Positions 32,538 through 51,131 of a stretch of DNA of 64,000 bases are shown here, in pieces. A model generated the notes under the pieces. It was not told where the DNA came from, searched no databases, and was given only the letters and a program-made list of their open reading frames with translations. A program made the translations under genes and the position numbers. Numbering within the stretch: the stretch's first letter is position 1; the number at the start of each line of letters is the position of its first letter. The DNA comes from an uncultured Candidatus Pelagibacter sp. (GTDB lineage: Bacteria > Pseudomonadota > Alphaproteobacteria > Pelagibacterales > Pelagibacteraceae). Where the stretch lies: contig CAJQSX010000002.1 in the NCBI GenBank assembly GCA_905616465.1, positions 88,955-152,954 on the forward strand, in the 5' to 3' direction.

Positions 32538-33611
32538 ATGAATAAAAAACCCTTAATTCTTGGAATTGAGACTAGTTGTGATGAAACAGCCGTATCCTTA
32601 ATAACTGAAAATGAGCAAGGAATTCCTATAGTTTTATCCAATATTATTTCAAGTCAAGTCGATGTTCATAAAGAATTTGGGGGAGTGGTTCCTGAACTGG
32701 CAGCTCGTTCACATATAGAAAAAATAGATTGGATAGTTCAAAAAGCAATTGATGATAGTGGAAGAAAGATTGAGGAAATTGATGCCATAGCTTCTACAGC
32801 GGGTCCTGGTTTAATAGTTTGTTTGTCAATCGGTTTAAGTTTTGGGAAAGCTTTTGCTAGCACATTAAATAAACCATTCATTGCAGTTAATCATTTAGAG
32901 GGTCATGCATTAAGTCCAAAACTTAATTCAGAATTAAACTATCCTTATTTAGTTTTATTAATTTCTGGTGGCCACTCACAATTTTTAAGTGTTAATGATC
33001 TTGGAAAATATACAAGATTAGGAACAACTATAGATGATGCTTTGGGTGAAGCTTTTGACAAAACAGCAAAACTTTTAGGAATTGAATTTCCTGGTGGGCC
33101 ACAAATTGAAGTTTTAGCAAAAAAAGGTGATCCTAATAAATATGAATTACCAAAACCAATTTTTAATAAAGGTGGTTGTAACCTTTCTTTTGCAGGACTT
33201 AAAACTGCAATTCTAAAAATTGCTAAAAATATCAAAACTGATCAAGAAAAATTTGATCTTGCAGCTTCTTTTCAAAAGACAGTTACTGAAATTCTATATA
33301 AAAAAACTAAAATTGCATTTAGTGAGTTTGAAAAACAAAATAATCCAAAAGAAAAAATATTTGTAGTTGCGGGAGGGGTGGCAGCAAATCAAAGTATTAG
33401 AGATATGTTGATTAATTTATGTAATGAAAAAAGTTATCGAAGTATTTTTCCCCCGATTGAACTGTGTGGCGATAATGCTGCAATGATAGCAATGGTGGGA
33501 TTAGAAAAATTTAAATTAAATCAATTTGATAACTTAGACCATCCAGCAAAACCAAGGTGGCCATTGGATGAAAAAGCAGCTTTCCTTAAAGGCGCGGGCG
33601 TAAAGTTTTAA
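32538..33611 (+). CDS. tsaD: tRNA N6-adenosine threonylcarbamoyltransferase
   Basis: LGIETSCDETAVSL; VNHLEGHALSP; LISGGHSQFL. Confidence 0.98.
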   Translation: MNKKPLILGIETSCDETAVSLITENEQGIPIVLSNIISSQVDVHKEFGGVVPELAARSHIEKIDWIVQKAIDDSGRKIEEIDAIASTAGPGLIVCLSIGLSFGKAFASTLNKPFIAVNHLEGHALSPKLNSELNYPYLVLLISGGHSQFLSVNDLGKYTRLGTTIDDALGEAFDKTAKLLGIEFPGGPQIEVLAKKGDPNKYELPKPIFNKGGCNLSFAGLKTAILKIAKNIKTDQEKFDLAASFQKTVTEILYKKTKIAFSEFEKQNNPKEKIFVVAGGVAANQSIRDMLINLCNEKSYRSIFPPIELCGDNAAMIAMVGLEKFKLNQFDNLDHPAKPRWPLDEKAAFLKGAGVKF

Positions 33612-33657: not shown

Positions 33658-33812
33658 ATGACAAAATCATACTGGCTAATGAAACCAACACTCCTTGTAC
33701 TTCAATAAGAACCTGTCGACTCCCATCAACTTTTACTTTATTTTATGAGCACAGGTCTTGTTTAAAGCTTATTAATAAGTGTAAATGAGGGGTACGTAGT
33801 GGGGTGTCAATT
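33658..33812 (+). repeat. Island boundary block A: EVE-gene 5' fragment plus degenerate conserved block
   Basis: ATGACAAAATCATACTGGCTAATGAAACCA reads MTKSYWLMKP (compare [10 protein letters not shown] of the EVE gene); gactcccatcaacttttactt at 33718; ggtgtcaatt at 33803. Confidence 0.65.
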
Positions 33813-33857: not shown

Positions 33858-35021
33858 TTAACTAATCTTAAATAGTTCCTCTATATAACCTGGCCGCAAA
33901 AAATCTCTTGTTCTGTAAATACTATCTGTCTTTAATAGATCGCTAACAGTATGTTGTTTAATACCTTTTCCGTAATCGTTTCTTGCCTCTTGATTTATGC
34001 TTAAAAAATAACTTTTTTTACTTTCTAAAATTTTTTTTGTGTATTTTTTAGAAAGACTTAAGTCTATTTCAGGCATGGAATCTTCGTTAAACCATAAAAT
34101 ATTTTTTTTTGTTTTATGCTCAAAAATTTTCCAATAAGGCTTTATAAAAATTTTTTTATCAGACAATTTTTTATTGGGTAATTTTTCATTATCTAAGTGA
34201 ACATTATTTTCACCGTGTGAGATCATAAGGTATATGGCTTGTAGTATTGATGAAAAAGGAAGATCATAAATGGTATATTTAGTGTTTATCATTTGTTTTA
34301 GGTAATGGCATGTGTATCCAATGCCAGCACCAATTTCTATTATTTCTGATAAATCATTATTTTTATAGATATTTCTTAGCTGCTCAGCTGCATAGAGACC
34401 CTTTAAATCCTTTAAAAAAATAAATTCTTTTTTGTATTTATAGCCATAGTAATAGTTGGGTGTTTTAAAAAGTGAAATTTTTTTTTTTTTAAAAATTTTG
34501 TTAATTAAATCATCATAATCAACTTCTTCAATCAACCAACCACCTTGCTCTGGATTAAATACTTTTATATTTCCATAATATTCACTAATCGATATTAGAT
34601 AATCAAAAAAAAAGCGTTTTTCATCATCTTTGAATTTTTTATTGCTTAATTTATTATATGATTTTCTATTAGTTCCGTATCCCCAAAGTAATTTTGTTTT
34701 ACCCAAGTCCTTAAGTACTTTTATAAGTTCTTTGTTATTTTTTTGTGTGTCACAAATTGAATCAATAAATCCTTTATGATCAATTTGATTTTCAATTACA
34801 CTCCATAAGTCATTATTTTTTTTTATAGGTTCGTTAGTTTTCAAATATAATGCATATGCAGAAATTCTATCTATAAACTTGTTTGAAATTTTTACTTGTA
34901 AATTTTTTTTGAAACTAAATTTTTTTGATGATGACTTTATCGCAGAAAATACATGATAATTTTTAAAATCATGATTTAATCTAGATATAATTCTATTTAT
35001 ATTTTTAATTATTTTTTTCAA
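33858..35021 (-). CDS. Putative sugar O-methyltransferase-like protein
   Basis: IIEIGAGIGYTCHYLKQM SAM-binding-like motif; YGTNRKSYNKLSN and sugar-methyltransferase-like organisation. Confidence 0.65.
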   Translation of the reverse strand: MKKIIKNINRIISRLNHDFKNYHVFSAIKSSSKKFSFKKNLQVKISNKFIDRISAYALYLKTNEPIKKNNDLWSVIENQIDHKGFIDSICDTQKNNKELIKVLKDLGKTKLLWGYGTNRKSYNKLSNKKFKDDEKRFFFDYLISISEYYGNIKVFNPEQGGWLIEEVDYDDLINKIFKKKKISLFKTPNYYYGYKYKKEFIFLKDLKGLYAAEQLRNIYKNNDLSEIIEIGAGIGYTCHYLKQMINTKYTIYDLPFSSILQAIYLMISHGENNVHLDNEKLPNKKLSDKKIFIKPYWKIFEHKTKKNILWFNEDSMPEIDLSLSKKYTKKILESKKSYFLSINQEARNDYGKGIKQHTVSDLLKTDSIYRTRDFLRPGYIEELFKIS

Positions 35022-35106
35022 GATTTATTATAATTCTTTATATCAAATCCTCATAGTAATTAAAACTGTATATGATGCCTTATGGTTCTTCATAATTTTT
35101 TATGTT

Positions 35107-35219
35107 AAAAGTTACAGAAGTATTTTTCCTCCAATTTAACTGTGCGGTGATAATGCTGCAATGATAACAATGGTAGGACTAGAAAAATTCAAATTAAAAA
35201 AACTTAGCAATTTATGTTG
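35107..35219 (+). pseudogene. Duplicated 3' fragment of tsaD
   Basis: In-frame reading SYRSIFPPI*LCGDNAAMITMVGLEKFKLKKLSNLC* against tsaD SYRSIFPPIELCGDNAAMIAMVGLEKFKLNQFDNLD. Confidence 0.93.
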
Positions 35220-35255
35220 ATGGTATGATACAATTGGTTATTGAAAAATAATTTG

Positions 35256-35424
35256 ATGCACTACTGGTTAATGAAACCAAAGCTTGCAATACATCGATAA
35301 AGCTCCACTGACTCCCACTAGCTTTTTGCTTATTTTTCTAACTAAAAATATTAATTAACAACATTTAATGCCTCCCAATGTATAGCACATCGTATAGCAC
35401 GGTTTTATTTATAAGGTGTCAATT
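35256..35424 (+). repeat. Island boundary block B: EVE-gene 5' fragment, conserved block and 12-bp tandem repeat
   Basis: ATGCACTACTGGTTAATGAAACCA (MHYWLMKP); gactcccactagctttttgctta at 35310; GTATAGCACATC GTATAGCACGGT at 35380-35403; ggtgtcaatt at 35415. Confidence 0.8.
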
Positions 35425-36254
35425 ACTGATCTTTGTCGTGCATAAGCACAGTTTTCACAGCTATCATGAGAATCGGGTACGCTTTCTGAATTCATAACAT
35501 CAATCATTTTCTGTATCTCTGTCTCCAAATAGTCTGTTCTGATTTTATAATAAATTAAAACTTCATCAAATAACATTTTACCATGAAAGCCTTCGTCTAC
35601 TTCCTTAGCATTACAAATATAAAAATATGCATCTGAAGAAACTTTGTAACCCATACCTTTAAGTATGTAGGCATAGTAATCTAGCTGTCTTTTATAGCCC
35701 TCTTTATAAGGATCATTAAAATATGTCTCTTGTGATATTTCTTTTTTGTGTTGAGATTTATAATCTGCAACAACTAATTCTTTTGTCTCAGTATTAAACC
35801 ACACATCGTCAATTCCACCTTGCAAAATAATATTACTGTCTTTAAATCTATATTTAATTCCATAATGCAATGAATCTCTCCATTCATCAATTAACAGTTT
35901 ATCATTGCCCTTTTTATCTTTAATAATCTCAGATGCATAAGGAACTAGGTGACTAAGATTATTTTTAATCATAATTCGATGAGGTTCTTGTTTCGCTCTG
36001 CATTCATCAAATTCTTTTTTTAAAAGTGTGTCAGTCAAAGTATTTAACGTCCATCCAGGGGTAGAAGGTGACATAAAACCTTTATTAACTTTTAAATAAA
36101 AACATCTAGGACAAGACATAAATTCATCAAATCTAGATCTGCTTAATTTATAGTCTTTATTTTGATTGGGAGAATAAATTCTAAATTTTTGACTGGTTAC
36201 ACCAGTTGCACTAACTAGCTCTTTTGTTTTACTATTTCTTTTTAAACTAATCAT
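35409..36254 (-). CDS. PD-(D/E)XK nuclease, Cas4/RecB-like with putative Fe-S cysteines
   Basis: FMSCPRCFYLKVNKG; LVVADYKSQHK (D-xK core); C-terminal CENCAYARQRS. Confidence 0.75.
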   Translation of the reverse strand: MISLKRNSKTKELVSATGVTSQKFRIYSPNQNKDYKLSRSRFDEFMSCPRCFYLKVNKGFMSPSTPGWTLNTLTDTLLKKEFDECRAKQEPHRIMIKNNLSHLVPYASEIIKDKKGNDKLLIDEWRDSLHYGIKYRFKDSNIILQGGIDDVWFNTETKELVVADYKSQHKKEISQETYFNDPYKEGYKRQLDYYAYILKGMGYKVSSDAYFYICNAKEVDEGFHGKMLFDEVLIYYKIRTDYLETEIQKMIDVMNSESVPDSHDSCENCAYARQRSVIDTL

Positions 36255-36412
36255 TAGTATACCTCCGATGCGTATCTGGCTAATTTAGGTTTTATTTTGG
36301 ACTCCCCAATTATTTTAATTGTTTCATTTATCTCCATATAGATTCTATAGAAATACTTTCCTTCTTTACGATTATGAACTTCCTCAACTCTTATTTCATG
36401 TATTTTATCCAT
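36254..36412 (-). CDS. Small 52-aa protein coupled to the nuclease, not in the ORF track
   Basis: Direct minus-strand reading MDKIHEIRVEEVHNRKEGKYFYRIYMEINETIKIIGESKIKPKLARYASEVY*; 1-nt stop/start overlaps with both neighbouring ORFs. Confidence 0.75.
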   Translation of the reverse strand: MDKIHEIRVEEVHNRKEGKYFYRIYMEINETIKIIGESKIKPKLARYASEVY

Positions 36413-36672
36413 TAGTGAATACTCCTCATTTTTTGAAAAGCTTCAAATTCAATTTTGGCACTTAGCAGTCTAAAATTATCCATTAACTTTACCCATTTTT
36501 CATCATTTTTTGATGGATTTATCCAAGGCAAATCATCTTTTTTTAAATCTAAAAAAAAACAAATATTTAAATCTATGTCATTTAAAAATTTTTGATGATC
36601 TTCTGGTGATAGTATGGATATTAATCTTATTAATTTTGCATTCTTAATGTTATCTGTTTTTTCTTTTTTCAT
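36412..36672 (-). CDS. Hypothetical 86-aa protein in nuclease operon
   Basis: Supplied ORF; coupled by 1-nt overlap to the 52-aa ORF. Confidence 0.6.
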   Translation of the reverse strand: MKKEKTDNIKNAKLIRLISILSPEDHQKFLNDIDLNICFFLDLKKDDLPWINPSKNDEKWVKLMDNFRLLSAKIEFEAFQKMRSIH

Positions 36673-36682
36673 ATATTAAATC

Positions 36683-36946
36683 TCAATTGGTAACATTATA
36701 ACAAATATGACCATCAGCATATAGCGCATCAAGTTCAACAACACATGATACAATTTTCGTTTTATTTTTAGCAAAAGTATAAAGCATTACCCTGGGACCT
36801 TCAGTTTCAATAGGTATTACTGTATGTAAAATATATCCATCATTTACCAAATCTTTTGGTTGTATATGGGGAAGTTTATATTCTTCTGAAAAACTTAGGC
36901 TAAACCATATTAAACTTAGGGCTGTAATTAATAGTAGTTTTTTCAT
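36683..36946 (-). CDS. Hypothetical secreted 87-aa protein
   Basis: Signal peptide MKKLLLITALSLIWFSLSFSEE; two cysteines (VSCVVEL, HICYN). Confidence 0.6.
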   Translation of the reverse strand: MKKLLLITALSLIWFSLSFSEEYKLPHIQPKDLVNDGYILHTVIPIETEGPRVMLYTFAKNKTKIVSCVVELDALYADGHICYNVTN

Positions 36947-37097
36947 TTAATTTTTTTGTTTTCTCATTGGCTAAACATTCTACTGTTTTACTAATTGATA
37001 ATTTTGCATCGGGCAACATTGCCTTCGATAAACTAATCAACGTCTTGTATGTTTCGTGTTTTAACGAAACATTTCTATATTTGGTTAAATCAGTCAT
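36900..37097 (-). CDS. Small ribbon-helix-helix-like protein (tentative)
   Basis: From ATG 37097: MTDLTKYRNVSLKHETYKTLISLSKAMLPDAKLSISKTVECLANEKTKK; NVSLK strand followed by two helices. Confidence 0.5.
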   Translation of the reverse strand: MTDLTKYRNVSLKHETYKTLISLSKAMLPDAKLSISKTVECLANEKTKKLNEKTTINYSPKFNMV

Positions 37098-37234
37098 AGT
37101 TCCTTTCGTTTTATTTTTTATTATACTAACCCACATATTATTAATTTATAGAAAAAATACGTTCGTTAAGAGCTCGACGTATAAAATAGTTTAGTATATT
37201 GTTAAAATTCATATATCTAAGAGATTGGTAAATT

Positions 37235-38128
37235 ATGTCTGAAAATAATTTAATAGAAGTCAAAACCTACGATGAACTAACAGAGGGATTAAAGGTATTG
37301 GGTGTTACTCCAAAAGAAGCATTCTCACTGGTATTTAAAAGTAAATTTCATTTCGACAAAAGGCATTTCTGGACAATGTCTAGAATTACTAAGTATTTGC
37401 GGGTCAGGATGATTGACGCGCTTAATTTAAAATCAAAATATAATGTAGAAGTTAAATATCCAAAAAAATTATGGAGCCTATATCACAAAGAACTTAAAGA
37501 GGAAAAATGGTTCAATAAAAAACTAATGGGAGAGCCAGTTCCTAACTATAAAAAAGATGGCACGTTTCACACTACACTATATTACGTAGATCCAGCATAT
37601 CGGAGTGATTTATGCAACGCAATTTTAGAAGATAGAGAAATAATTAAATTAATTAAAACAGAAATGCCAAAAAAAATTGATACTTGTAGAAAGTTAAATG
37701 AATCAGAAATTTTTGAATTTGATTATGAGCATCTATGGTTTTCTGGAAAGAAATTTGATGCTTATCAAGAAATTCAAAACTTACATAAGCTAGTAACTGA
37801 AAAAAGACATAACAAAAAATTCTCTCCAAATTATCTAGATGTAAGAAAAGTGCCAAACTGGAATAATATTAAGTGGGAAACTCCACTCTGGAAGGAACTT
37901 GGACACAACTATTTTGAATTAGAATATGAAAAAATAAAAAAAAAAGCCACACGTATGAGAAAAGTAATTCCTGATTATGCTAAATCTGCACAAATGTGGG
38001 AAGATCCCAAACCTACTGATGGAAAATATTTAAAAATTAATGAGATTATGCTTAGGCATAATAGATATGGTGGAAAGCTTAATGAATTCAAATATTTTAC
38101 TCAAAGAAATATTGATCTTATACGTTAA
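37235..38128 (+). CDS. Hypothetical protein, 297 aa, no recognised family
   Basis: Long ORF in accessory island starting MSENNLIEVKTYDELTEGLKVLGVTPKEAF. Confidence 0.6.
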   Translation: MSENNLIEVKTYDELTEGLKVLGVTPKEAFSLVFKSKFHFDKRHFWTMSRITKYLRVRMIDALNLKSKYNVEVKYPKKLWSLYHKELKEEKWFNKKLMGEPVPNYKKDGTFHTTLYYVDPAYRSDLCNAILEDREIIKLIKTEMPKKIDTCRKLNESEIFEFDYEHLWFSGKKFDAYQEIQNLHKLVTEKRHNKKFSPNYLDVRKVPNWNNIKWETPLWKELGHNYFELEYEKIKKKATRMRKVIPDYAKSAQMWEDPKPTDGKYLKINEIMLRHNRYGGKLNEFKYFTQRNIDLIR

Positions 38129-38243
38129 AAATTTTTTTCAAATAAATAAATGTAAAGTACATATGTTCCCCGGCACAATAATGACTTGTATTAAGACAGT
38201 ACTATTTAGCTGCAAAATTTTAGAAATAGTGTAATAAATATTT

Positions 38244-38444
38244 ATGACTAAGTTTAAACTTGCAGAATTTTTTAGTGGACCTGGAGGCATGGGTTATGGT
38301 GCGGGCTTAAGCAAGGTTAAGGATAAAAAAAATATTCATTCAATTGAGCATGCATGGGCTTCTGATTATCATCAAGCTTCTTGCAATACTTATGAAAAAA
38401 ATATTAAAACCAACATACCTAGTACCCTGATAAAACTCTACTAA
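38244..38444 (+). pseudogene. Truncated N-terminus of a C5-cytosine DNA methyltransferase
   Basis: KLAEFFSGPGGMGYGAGLSKVKDKKNIHSIEHAWASDYHQASCNTYEKNI (motif I), then terminates inside boundary block C. Confidence 0.8.
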
Positions 38445-38535
38445 CCCCCACTAACCTTTTACTTGGTTTCATTAATCAGAATGTTGATTAGTAACGCTTA
38501 GTAGTTAATATGCATATGACATTGCATAGTACGAC
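38403..38535 (+). repeat. Island boundary block C
   Basis: attaaaaccaacat similar to EVE-fragment tail; aacccccactaaccttttactt at about 38443; GCATATGACATT GCATAGTACGAC at 38512-38535; spacing 69 bp versus 70 bp in block B. Confidence 0.75.
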
Positions 38536-38592
38536 TTCGTTCTATTGTATAAAACTTTATTTTGTAAGATTGCAAAATATGATAAAATTATT

Positions 38593-39588
38593 ATGATTCA
38601 GAAAATGAATAAACTAAAAGTATTTGAAGCATTTGCAGGATATGGGGGGGCTTCCTATGGTTTAAAAAGATCTAAAATTGAATTTGAAGTTATAGGTTTT
38701 TCTGAAATTGATAAATTTACAAGTGAGTTTTATCAAAAAAATCATCCTAAAACTTTCAACTACGGTGATATTACAAAAATAGATCCTAAAAAAATTCCAG
38801 ATTTTGATCTTTTTACTGGTGGATTTCCATGTCAACCTTTTTCTCAAGTTGGTATGGGGTTAGGTGAAGATGATACTAGAGGAACATTGTTTCATGACAT
38901 AATTAGAATTTGTAAAATTAAAAAACCTAAACATATTTTACTTGAAAACGTTAAAGGTTTAAAAACAGTTAGACATGGAAGAACCCTCAAAACAATCATA
39001 AGCAAGCTAACTAAATTGGGATATGATGTGGTAACTGAGGTTATGAATTCAAAAAATTATGGCATACCTCAAAATCGAGAACGAGTTTGGATTTACGCAT
39101 ATCAAGGTATTCTTCCTCTAACATTTAACTTGTCACCTCCAACAAGAAAATTAAAGATTTTTTTTAAAGACTTATTAGATAAAGAGCCTGATAAATTACT
39201 TTTTAAAAATCAAAAACAAATAAAAAGATTAAAAGAGTTATATAATCTAGATTTTAAGGTTAAAGAACCCTCTTGCGCAGATCTATATAATAAAAATATT
39301 CGCAGTGATGGGATTAGCATCACTATTTTAGAACCACACCACAATAAAATGAGAGTGGCCCATCCTTCAATTAATAATAAATTACAAGTAAGGAAATACT
39401 CTATAAATGAACACTTTCGATTTATGGGCTTTAAAAATGAGAAAATTGATTTGTGTAATCAATCTTATCAACAATTATGTAAGATGTTAGCAAATGGGTG
39501 GGATGTAAATTTAACATCACTTATTTTTCAAAATATATTTAAACAAATACAAAACAATCAATACGAAAATATCTCTAAGGCATCTTAA
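38593..39588 (+). CDS. DNA (cytosine-5-)-methyltransferase
   Basis: FEAFAGYGGASYGL motif I; GGFPCQPFSQVG motif IV; LLENVKGL motif VI; NRERVWIYA motif VIII. Confidence 0.93.
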   Translation: MIQKMNKLKVFEAFAGYGGASYGLKRSKIEFEVIGFSEIDKFTSEFYQKNHPKTFNYGDITKIDPKKIPDFDLFTGGFPCQPFSQVGMGLGEDDTRGTLFHDIIRICKIKKPKHILLENVKGLKTVRHGRTLKTIISKLTKLGYDVVTEVMNSKNYGIPQNRERVWIYAYQGILPLTFNLSPPTRKLKIFFKDLLDKEPDKLLFKNQKQIKRLKELYNLDFKVKEPSCADLYNKNIRSDGISITILEPHHNKMRVAHPSINNKLQVRKYSINEHFRFMGFKNEKIDLCNQSYQQLCKMLANGWDVNLTSLIFQNIFKQIQNNQYENISKAS

Positions 39589-39600
39589 TTTTAATTTACT

Positions 39601-40485
39601 TTATGCTTTAATAGTAAATTTTTCATTTGCGTCACCAAATGTTTGTATTTCATCATTATATTTATTGTTTGGTAATTTTGCTAATAAATGTAAAGCATCC
39701 TTGCTGTACATATTAAACCTTAGAAGACGATATTTGATTTTACTGTCATTTCTGACTTCAATTTCAACAATATTTTTAGAAGTGCCAGGAGTTTTTTCAT
39801 AGCATAAAAGTATTTTTTGGCCATCAACATTAAAATCTTGAGGAATTTTACCTGCTTTTGAGACTGAAGGATGAGTTGACTCAGTTAATACTTTTAAAAC
39901 ATCATCCTTTGTAAAAACTTTAAATAGACCATCTTTTTTATAGTGAGTATCTTTTATTATTAAAAATTTTACTTCATCATTATTAAAAATAGCTTCATTA
40001 TAAAATTTCTTTAAAACATTTTTGTCGTTAAGTATTTTTGAAACTATTTTTGTGTTTTTGTGAAGTATATATTTGGCATTTATATAAACATTATTTTTAA
40101 GAGTACTAATAACTTCTTTGTTCAATAATTTTTTTGTAGCTTCTTTACCATAATCTTTTAGGTATGCTTCTTTATATGAAATACAGGCAATTCTATCTGT
40201 TTCATATAACTCATAATTTTCAGGAAAAGATTCTAAACAAGGTTTTAAAATAGCAAGATTTAAACTCTGAGAAATTCTACCTAATGTATAAAGAAAAATT
40301 TGCCATTTTTTTCCACTTTTGACAGAATAGAGTGTTTCTAACTTATCAACTACATCACCTTTTCGCGTTCCTTTTTTAACACTTCCATTAATTAACTTTG
40401 CAAAGACTTCTTCATTTTTATGACCAAGTTTTTTCTTTTCACTTGAAATTTTGCTTGATGGTGCGCGTCTTCTGTTAATAGTCAT
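39601..40485 (-). CDS. Candidate Type II restriction endonuclease partner of the C5-methyltransferase
   Basis: 294 aa ORF convergent with the methyltransferase (12-bp gap); KKLGHKNEEVFAKLINGSVKKGTRKGDVVDKLETLYSVKSGKKWQIFLY resembles a nuclease core with D...SxKS. Confidence 0.6.
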   Translation of the reverse strand: MTINRRRAPSSKISSEKKKLGHKNEEVFAKLINGSVKKGTRKGDVVDKLETLYSVKSGKKWQIFLYTLGRISQSLNLAILKPCLESFPENYELYETDRIACISYKEAYLKDYGKEATKKLLNKEVISTLKNNVYINAKYILHKNTKIVSKILNDKNVLKKFYNEAIFNNDEVKFLIIKDTHYKKDGLFKVFTKDDVLKVLTESTHPSVSKAGKIPQDFNVDGQKILLCYEKTPGTSKNIVEIEVRNDSKIKYRLLRFNMYSKDALHLLAKLPNNKYNDEIQTFGDANEKFTIKA

Positions 40486-40678
40486 AAGGTATCAATCGCT
40501 AATCATTTGACTAATCTTATTGTTTAAAAAAACTGATTACCAGCCTTAAAATCTAACAATGTATAAATAACAAAGATACAAAATTTAAATTTTATGCACT
40601 TTTTAAGTGATGCTTATACTTGCCCTTTAAGGGCTTACTTGGTCACTATAGAGGGAAAAATTAATTTAGTATAAAAAT

Positions 40679-41011
40679 TTGATTATGAAAAAAAAAGTAA
40701 AAGAAGTTGTAGATAAATTTTATAAATTTTTTGAGATGAATGTTTTTGATCCTAATAATGAAAAGCATAAAATGATTGTTCAAAGAAGAATAAATATGAT
40801 GATGGGTAGTCCATTGCTAATTCAATGGTTAAAAGAAAGTACATGGTTTAATAAAGATGAAAAATTAACACACGAAGTAATTAAATACCTTATTAATTGT
40901 GCAACAGCATTTTTAAATGAAAAAGAGTTTATAGAAAAAATTGACTTCAATTCTAAAGATTGGATAGAAGGACTAGATGTAAGAGTGTCCAGCGTGAGTA
41001 AAAAAAACTAG
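40679..41011 (+). CDS. Hypothetical 110-aa protein
   Basis: Supplied ORF between the R-M pair and the EVE gene; no recognised family. Confidence 0.5.
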   Translation: MIMKKKVKEVVDKFYKFFEMNVFDPNNEKHKMIVQRRINMMMGSPLLIQWLKESTWFNKDEKLTHEVIKYLINCATAFLNEKEFIEKIDFNSKDWIEGLDVRVSSVSKKN

Positions 41012-41043
41012 AATTCATAAAAAAATTAACGAGTTATTGGTTT

Positions 41044-41067
41044 GCATATGACTTTGCATAGTACGTG
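41044..41067 (+). repeat. Island boundary D: 12-bp tandem direct repeat upstream of EVE gene
   Basis: GCATATGACTTT GCATAGTACGTG, close match to motifs at 35380 and 38512. Confidence 0.75.
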
Positions 41068-41137
41068 TTTTATAAAAATCATGTATAATGAAAGTGCTAT
41101 GTTTAAAAAAGTAAGTAAACACTGGAGAAACAATTAG

Positions 41138-41551
41138 ATGCAGTACTGGTTAATGAAATCAGAACCAAATGTTTGGTCTATTGATCAACAAAAAAAAGTA
41201 GGTGCTAGAGGTGCTTCTTGGGATGGTGTAAGAAACTATCAGGCTGCCAAAAACTTAAGATCAATGAAAAAAGGTGATCATTGTTTTTTTTATCATTCTA
41301 ATATTGGGAAGGAAATTGTTGGAATTGTTGAGATCATTAAAGAAGCTTATCTAGACAAAACTGACAAATCAAATCGATTTGTTGCTGTTGATGTTAGGTT
41401 TTTAAAGAAACTTGATAAATATGTTGGCCTAGAAAACATAAAAAAAAATAAGGAATTAGGCCATTTATCCTTGATTAAACAAAGCAGATTATCTGTAATG
41501 CCTATAGATTCTAAAAGCTGGAAAATCTTGATCAACATGAGTAAAATTTAA
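41138..41551 (+). CDS. EVE domain-containing protein (thymocyte nuclear protein 1-like)
   Basis: [18 protein letters not shown]...[29 protein letters not shown]. Confidence 0.95.
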
Positions 41552-51056: not shown

Positions 51057-51131
51057 TGGAGCGGGCAAAGGGGGTCGAACCCTCGACCTTCTCGTTGGCA
51101 ACGAGACGCTCTACCACTGAGCTATGCCCGC
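51057..51131 (-). tRNA. tRNA-Gly (anticodon GCC), CCA encoded
   Basis: Minus strand GCGGGCATAGCTCAGTGGTAGAGCGTCTCGTTGCCAACGAGAAGGTCGAGGGTTCGACCCCCTTTGCCCGCTCCA folds as a cloverleaf with GCC in the anticodon loop. Confidence 0.97.

Follow-up and report, generated by a model that had tools for sequence, protein, structure and literature searches.

Paired 12-bp repeats at the ends of probable mobile cassettes in the EVE gene of SAR11 bacteria

The tsaD-EVE interval and its repeat pairs

A 64,000-nucleotide stretch (hereafter the window) of an uncultured Candidatus Pelagibacter sp. assembly (GCA_905616465.1, contig CAJQSX010000002.1, positions 88,955 to 152,954 of the forward strand) carries an island between the genes tsaD and EVE which contains pairs of 12-bp tandem repeats and, with little room for doubt, the ends of mobile cassettes, named here left end (LE) and right end (RE). 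Coordinates are those of the window and features lie on the + strand unless stated. An intact tsaD gene (32538-33611; Pfam TsaD, 5.8e-89), which adjoins EVE in most relatives, forms the left flank of the island, and the intact EVE gene lies at 41138-41551 (Pfam EVE, 3.2e-44). Repeat pairs were read at 35380-35403 (GTATAGCACATC GTATAGCACGGT), 38512-38535 (GCATATGACATT GCATAGTACGAC) and 41044-41067 (GCATATGACTTT GCATAGTACGTG), and re-reading confirmed the coordinates and letters of an earlier note on this DNA, which had described three sites of two units each with a 12-bp period. The same note had placed all three at module boundaries; they do lie at edges, but they are not equivalent, those at 35380 and 38512 being the inner ends of LEs and that at 41044 the inner end of the RE. 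A fourth, decayed pair (GAGGGGTACGTA GTGGGGTGTC) at 33787-33808, overlooked earlier, is found in a third LE adjoining tsaD.

This third left end (LE0, 33685-33808) is diverged, with 68%–72% identity to the LE of relatives, and follows a displaced fragment of the EVE 5' end (33658-33684; identified by self-comparison and in relatives) that would be the left half of an attachment core. LE1 (35277-35403; 69%–81% identity) follows a decayed right-end tail with a second displaced EVE 5' fragment (35243-35276, ATG at 35256; 86% identity to 41125-41161). LE2 occupies 38410-38535 (62%–73% identity) and the RE 41044-41137 (71%–85% identity to the RE of relatives), its repeat pair starting exactly 94 bp before the EVE ATG.

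With up to three mismatches allowed, the pattern given in the earlier note had three matches in the window and none in 100 dinucleotide shuffles, and its exact form had three matches in the 0.8-Mb host assembly, none of them outside the three window sites; by chance, none would be expected. A refined pattern (GYRTAGTACNTNGYRTAGTACG) was then used for an exact scan of approximately 85,000 bacterial and archaeal species genomes and matched 25 stretches. Nineteen of these were Pelagibacteraceae records and all 19 contained LE, RE or the EVE/tsaD genes of the tsaD-EVE locus, while the remaining six had no LE, RE or EVE/tsaD. Those near-matches elsewhere in SAR11 that were inspected lay inside seemingly ordinary coding genes and are attributed to chance. 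The question raised earlier, whether the motif concentrates at island edges in SAR11 genomes, is thereby answered: its sites are restricted to such edges, and to a single locus. A host regulon was rejected, as the host assembly has the motif nowhere else and no further SAR11 site was confirmed.

Empty loci and the insertion target

In 20 of the 30 relatives first fetched tsaD and EVE adjoin each other or overlap by the stop/start codon, and therefore the 7.5 kb between the two genes in the window is inserted DNA. It also follows from this adjacency that no native EVE upstream region exists: EVE begins at the tsaD stop codon in empty loci and no sequence of the repeat kind is present there. The earlier suggestion that the repeats are a remnant of original sequence ahead of EVE was consequently abandoned, and a native EVE promoter was ruled out as their origin. 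The gene preceding the element in record AG-909-G09 is gpsA-like and not tsaD, hence it is EVE that the elements target. Comparing codons with those of empty sites indicates that EVE codons 1-5 in the window would have been supplied by the element. Different DNA without LE lies between tsaD and EVE in other SAR11 genomes (L064-L068, L071), the tsaD-EVE junction being a general insertion hot spot.

Ends and cargo of the cassette family

LE and RE are common to more than 20 single-cell genomes, where they always adjoin EVE; many of the genomes compared here are partial single-cell assemblies. Of 399 genomes sampled from the genus, 12 (about 3%) had strong LE matches, and LE is present in another family of the same order as well (G657). 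The cassettes are inserted in constant orientation at the EVE 5' end and share one layout: displaced EVE codons 1-7, LE, a 12-bp pair, cargo, a 12-bp pair, RE and EVE. LE is approximately 150 bp long and begins in the displaced EVE codons 1-7, with about 100 bp between these codons and the repeat pair, and RE is approximately 95 bp long and ends in the replacement EVE start, about 70 bp of it lying beyond the repeat pair. The spacing of the repeats is nearly fixed. Among the 17 elements measured, 14 have both LE units with the repeats starting at +124 relative to the displaced ATG (others at +122 and +123), and the RE repeats lie -93 to -97 from the EVE ATG, mostly at -94 (17 elements measured). 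In AG-343-O17 the LE repeats are at +124 with the second unit decayed, and G363 has a single unit.

The repeats also coincide with the limit of the conserved ends: in LE, conservation stops some 6 bp inside the repeats, and in RE it starts some 5 bp outside them. Both ends have their repeat pairs in direct orientation, and no terminal inverted repeats of the kind found in DDE-type elements were seen at the ends. A block (AAATGYRTAGTACNTTGYRTAGTACG) is common to LE and RE and is abutted by unrelated cargo, and the copy number of the LE repeats varies from one to four units (four in G021, L073; one in G363, L070, and in AG-343-O17, L140). Such boundaries, with the shared block and the variable LE copy number, would be expected if the 12-bp pairs were cargo-exchange sites, cargo being swapped between the LE and RE repeats of a stationary shell. 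No empty LE-repeat-RE shell was seen, however, and whole elements including LE and RE travel together (see below), so that we consider exchange of this type very improbable.

Cargo amounts to 1.2-5 kb and one to four genes, often for restriction-modification, and many of the cassettes have anti-phage genes. The cargo includes ISP/IIG and type I-like systems, C5 and EcoRI-type methyltransferases, Vsr and GmrSD, as well as metabolic and surface genes. The first gene in six cassettes (L147, 393-728; L109, L112, L115, L123, L128) encodes a conserved 111-residue protein (MQxELFDYRRD...) of unrecognised fold, for which structure modelling gave a poor model. It was rejected as an element-specific regulator or backbone gene because it is also present at other SAR11 loci with its own conserved upstream region, including beside a transfer-messenger RNA-like gene. 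Two loci (L110 in G355 and L140 in AG-343-O17) contain tandem cassettes in which RE, core and LE are directly joined, as would be expected of attP. A truncated LE that lacks the 12-bp repeats was observed at a different genomic place in G083 (L189, ~2643-2741 of the reverse-complemented locus), where it adjoins glycosyltransferase- and carbamoyltransferase-like genes, with no EVE/tsaD in the 13-kb stretch fetched.

Movement between lineages and the crossover point

The elements of G605 and G657 (record AG-909-G09) are 99.3% identical across 3412 bp although their hosts belong to different families, with tsaD proteins 53% and EVE N-termini 69% identical. On either side the identity breaks down at the EVE core, with breakpoints within EVE codons 2-7. 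The same pattern, at about 96% identity, was obtained for G546 and AG-343-I16. Across 16 elements the identity matrix of LE is correlated with that of RE (Mantel r 0.68, p 2e-4), while neither of them follows the identity of the host EVE (r -0.08 and -0.16), these statistics and those given below resting on homologous, non-independent sequences. Mean conservation is 88% for the non-coding LE and 77% for the EVE coding sequence past codon 9. Judging by these comparisons the cassette moves between lineages as a single unit. Copies that are nearly identical across families suggest recent movement.

Natural transformation followed by homologous recombination might have spread the cassettes, in which case LE, RE and the repeats would be tracts of homology left by an old insertion. 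Frequent recombination has been reported for SAR11 (PMC2217521), cargo is mosaic among elements with common ends (L109/L123 and L144/L147), and other cargo without LE/RE is also found between tsaD and EVE. Against this, the 99% identity ends at the EVE core and the aligned upstream flanks are only about 33%–43% identical, which is no homology; LE/RE similarity is unrelated to EVE similarity; and integration products are present in the form of displaced copies of the EVE 5' end and of tandem RE-core-LE junctions. Spread by transformation is disfavoured, and we judge it improbable.

The crossover point was narrowed by comparison of the two ends. RE has ATGAAGTACTGGTTA in most elements, the AAG at codon 2 being absent from 17 empty sites, whereas LE is host-like over codons 2-6 and almost constant from AAACCAA onward. 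The exchange was therefore placed in codons 5-7 (TTANTNAAA), inside a TGGTT...AACCA inverted pair.

Search for a mobilising enzyme

No integrase, recombinase or transfer family occurred in the cargo among the families listed (25 of the 41 found for 41 cargo proteins), and none of 16 carrier genomes had a Phage_integrase match at its element locus. Carrier genomes hold no or one tyrosine recombinase, the core XerD-like protein, as in complete SAR11 genomes; most of 12 complete or near-complete SAR11 genomes (L148-L161) have a single XerD-like recombinase of ~305-318 residues, scoring well under the XerC/XerD equivalog cut-offs. An element-borne integrase was rejected on these results, and with none found in the cargo the reaction would fall either to the core XerD-like enzyme or to a transient helper. 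In a comparison with dif the pattern was too weak, its matches equalling the control. An apparent link of the repeats to a nearby recombinase gene in G051 proved to be coincidence, the match lying inside a transporter-like gene.

No parental integrative and conjugative element (ICE) or integrative and mobilizable element (IME) with the same attachment sites was seen in the sampled genomes, phage records or viral contigs. The EVE-start pattern, searched exactly in IMG/VR, found nothing related, the single viral-contig match to the repeat pattern was without LE or RE, and the bare LE-side core had 15 matches in IMG/VR, which grouped into a small number of similar-sequence sets belonging to unrelated viruses. 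An Rfam search found nothing.

Function of the ends and of the repeat pairs

A role of the repeats in recombination is indicated by their fixed spacing about the core on both sides, by their position at the limit of the conserved ends and by the lack of a host regulon. The repeat type (GCAT, GTGT) of one end tends to agree with that of the other end in the same element (permutation p 0.001, or 0.014 after thinning), as it does within the L110 array. Features resembling attP may be recognised in the TGGTT-AATGA-AACCA core, in the fixed-distance direct repeats on both sides of it and in GACTC direct repeats in LE. On balance we favour the reading that the repeats form the inner limit of attachment ends that belong to small mobile cassettes, which insert in the 5' end of SAR11 EVE. 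Insertion by site-specific recombination is probable; a tyrosine recombinase acting in trans would join attP (RE, the TGGTT.AATGA.AACCA core and LE) to EVE codons 5-7. The chances that the 12-bp repeats are sites of the recombinase complex are about even, and at -94 and +124 around the core they would be arm-type or accessory-protein binding sites. The earlier proposal of a recombinase or protein-binding site agrees with the restriction of the motif to island edges at one locus; its specific part, binding of a recombinase to the repeats themselves, is inferred. RE would also supply EVE with a new promoter, ribosome-binding site and start, and because of this the EVE gene would not be destroyed by insertion. 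The window RE has a -10-like TATAAT 18 bp past the repeats and GGAG ahead of the EVE ATG.

Several observations weigh against the attachment-end reading. Codon 6 varies in LE as well as in RE, so that the exact crossover is not fixed, G021 and G505 have differing repeat types at their two ends, and no integrase, excision intermediate or free attP turned up. Nothing related came from exact IMG/VR searches with the repeat pattern, one RE pattern and two LE patterns, or from LE in the phage collection, where there was one chance match; a viral attP or helper was accordingly discarded as a candidate. Finally, the LE repeats are intact in 20 of 20 elements whose first gene points rightward and in one of five whose first gene points leftward (Fisher 4e-4).

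The last pattern is likewise predicted if the repeats are operators or promoters, the LE copy driving the first cargo gene and the RE copy driving EVE, with mobility residing in the rest of LE and RE. Both copies run in the same direction just upstream of rightward genes, the -10-like hexamer of RE follows its repeats by 18 bp, and EVE in occupied loci is cut off from the tsaD operon promoter, which is the premise of this explanation. The left-pointing elements may, however, simply be decayed. Moreover, the LE repeats are not followed by a consistent -10-like hexamer (p 0.13), the first gene of six elements comes with a conserved upstream region of its own that also occurs at other loci lacking LE, the motif has no apparent host regulon, and a promoter role offers no reason for the agreement of types between the two ends. 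The earlier note had envisaged a promoter conserved upstream of every EVE gene; RE does provide a plausible substitute promoter and ribosome-binding site for EVE, but the repeats precede EVE only where a cassette has inserted. We regard the regulatory explanation as unlikely, although recombination-site and promoter roles need not be mutually exclusive.

Comparison with known systems

The cassettes appear to be integrase-less elements with their own attachment sites, resembling cis-mobilizable elements (CIMEs) or integron cassettes in behaviour. CIMEs and their site-specific accretion have been defined (PMC5704250) and are, by analogy, the nearest concept. As in CIMEs, no integration or transfer genes were found, attL and attR are kept as LE and RE with displaced and replaced EVE 5' ends, a specific gene is the target, and RE-core-LE arrays show tandem accumulation at the attachment sites. 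Unlike CIMEs, the cassettes of 1.2-5 kb are not recognisable as decayed ICE or IME remnants and no parent element was found for them, their well-preserved ends are common to many unrelated cargos, and near-identical copies occur across families.

Integron cassettes are compact, lie in one orientation and in tandem at one locus, are moved by an enzyme in trans and have an attC site with a palindromic fold. The EVE cassettes are similar in having one to four genes in one orientation, in tandem at one locus, with an enzyme presumably acting in trans. They differ in their long asymmetric LE and RE with tandem repeats, in a target which is the start of a protein-coding gene and in that no integrase gene was seen; single-strand folds of five LE/RE ends (z -2.1 to +0.4) had no shared attC-like hairpin. 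An integron-like system of SAR11 at EVE, with interchangeable defence cassettes, the core XerD-like recombinase or a transient phage helper, and repeat types as specificity classes, is a tentative and rather doubtful extension of these likenesses.

Tycheposons are described as having a tRNA border and a tyrosine recombinase (PMC10872708), and small satellites such as phage-inducible chromosomal minimalist islands (PICMIs) as having integrase, regulator and primase genes (PMC10803314). Both are marine and site-specific with ecological or defence cargo, as are the cassettes, which however show no tRNA border and no recombinase, integrase, regulator or primase genes; the sole tRNA of the window is at 51057-51131, and the window cargo has no recombinase. 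The main SAR11 hypervariable region, for which homologous recombination between flanking RNA genes was proposed (PMC2217521), likewise has variable gene content at a fixed chromosomal place, but the EVE cassettes have precise ends and a gene-internal core. No link between Pelagibacter and insertion at an EVE-domain gene was found in the open-access literature searched, which is weak evidence of novelty. By bringing restriction-modification systems from one family to another, at a housekeeping gene whose promoter and start would be exchanged, the cassettes offer a concrete, testable route of defence-gene transfer in an abundant ocean bacterium, and LE and RE are a search handle toward the mobilising enzyme or helper.

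Cargo and state of the island in the window

The window retains three left ends and one right end, the right ends of modules 0 and A being missing or decayed, and the island is, on its sequence, best described as a damaged and decayed tandem array. It would have arisen from at least three insertions, with methyltransferase, nuclease and other cargo. Module 0 encodes a putative sugar O-methyltransferase of 387 residues (33858-35021, - strand; NCBIfam TIGR04371, 1.2e-11, barely over the cut-off; no Pfam match). Where its right end is expected there is a fragment of a tsaD 3' end (35093-35214; 80% identity to the resident tsaD), perhaps carried in from another strain. Module A contains a PD-(D/E)XK nuclease, Cas4/AddB-like (35409-36254, - strand; Pfam PDDEXK_1, 1.1e-11; Cas4-like in PADLOC), and a 297-residue protein of unrecognised fold (37235-38128) with a 34% identical homologue in cassette L140.

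Module B starts with a C5 cytosine methyltransferase gene (38545-39588; Pfam, 5.9e-66), followed by a gene for a 294-residue protein (39601-40485, - strand), a candidate restriction partner by its position, and by a gene for a 110-residue protein (40679-41011) with no family match and no function assigned. The 294-residue protein had no family match, and its structure model (predicted local distance difference test score, pLDDT, 37) gave no usable fold. Ahead of LE2 lies the 5' fragment of a cytosine methyltransferase gene (38244-38406; identified by comparison with L109 and L123 cargo), which is cut at AATATTAAAA|CC and fused to LE2, and full-length homologues of this fragment are cargo in L109 and L123 (75%–77% identity). 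The cut resembles a core variant (TTATTAAAACC), and the fusion may reflect exchange at a secondary core. In the RE, a 12-codon open reading frame (41099-41137; also in L063, L072, L073 and L074; e.g. MIQKWRKHWRNN) ends exactly at the EVE start codon, a possible case of translational coupling that mimics the lost tsaD-EVE overlap.

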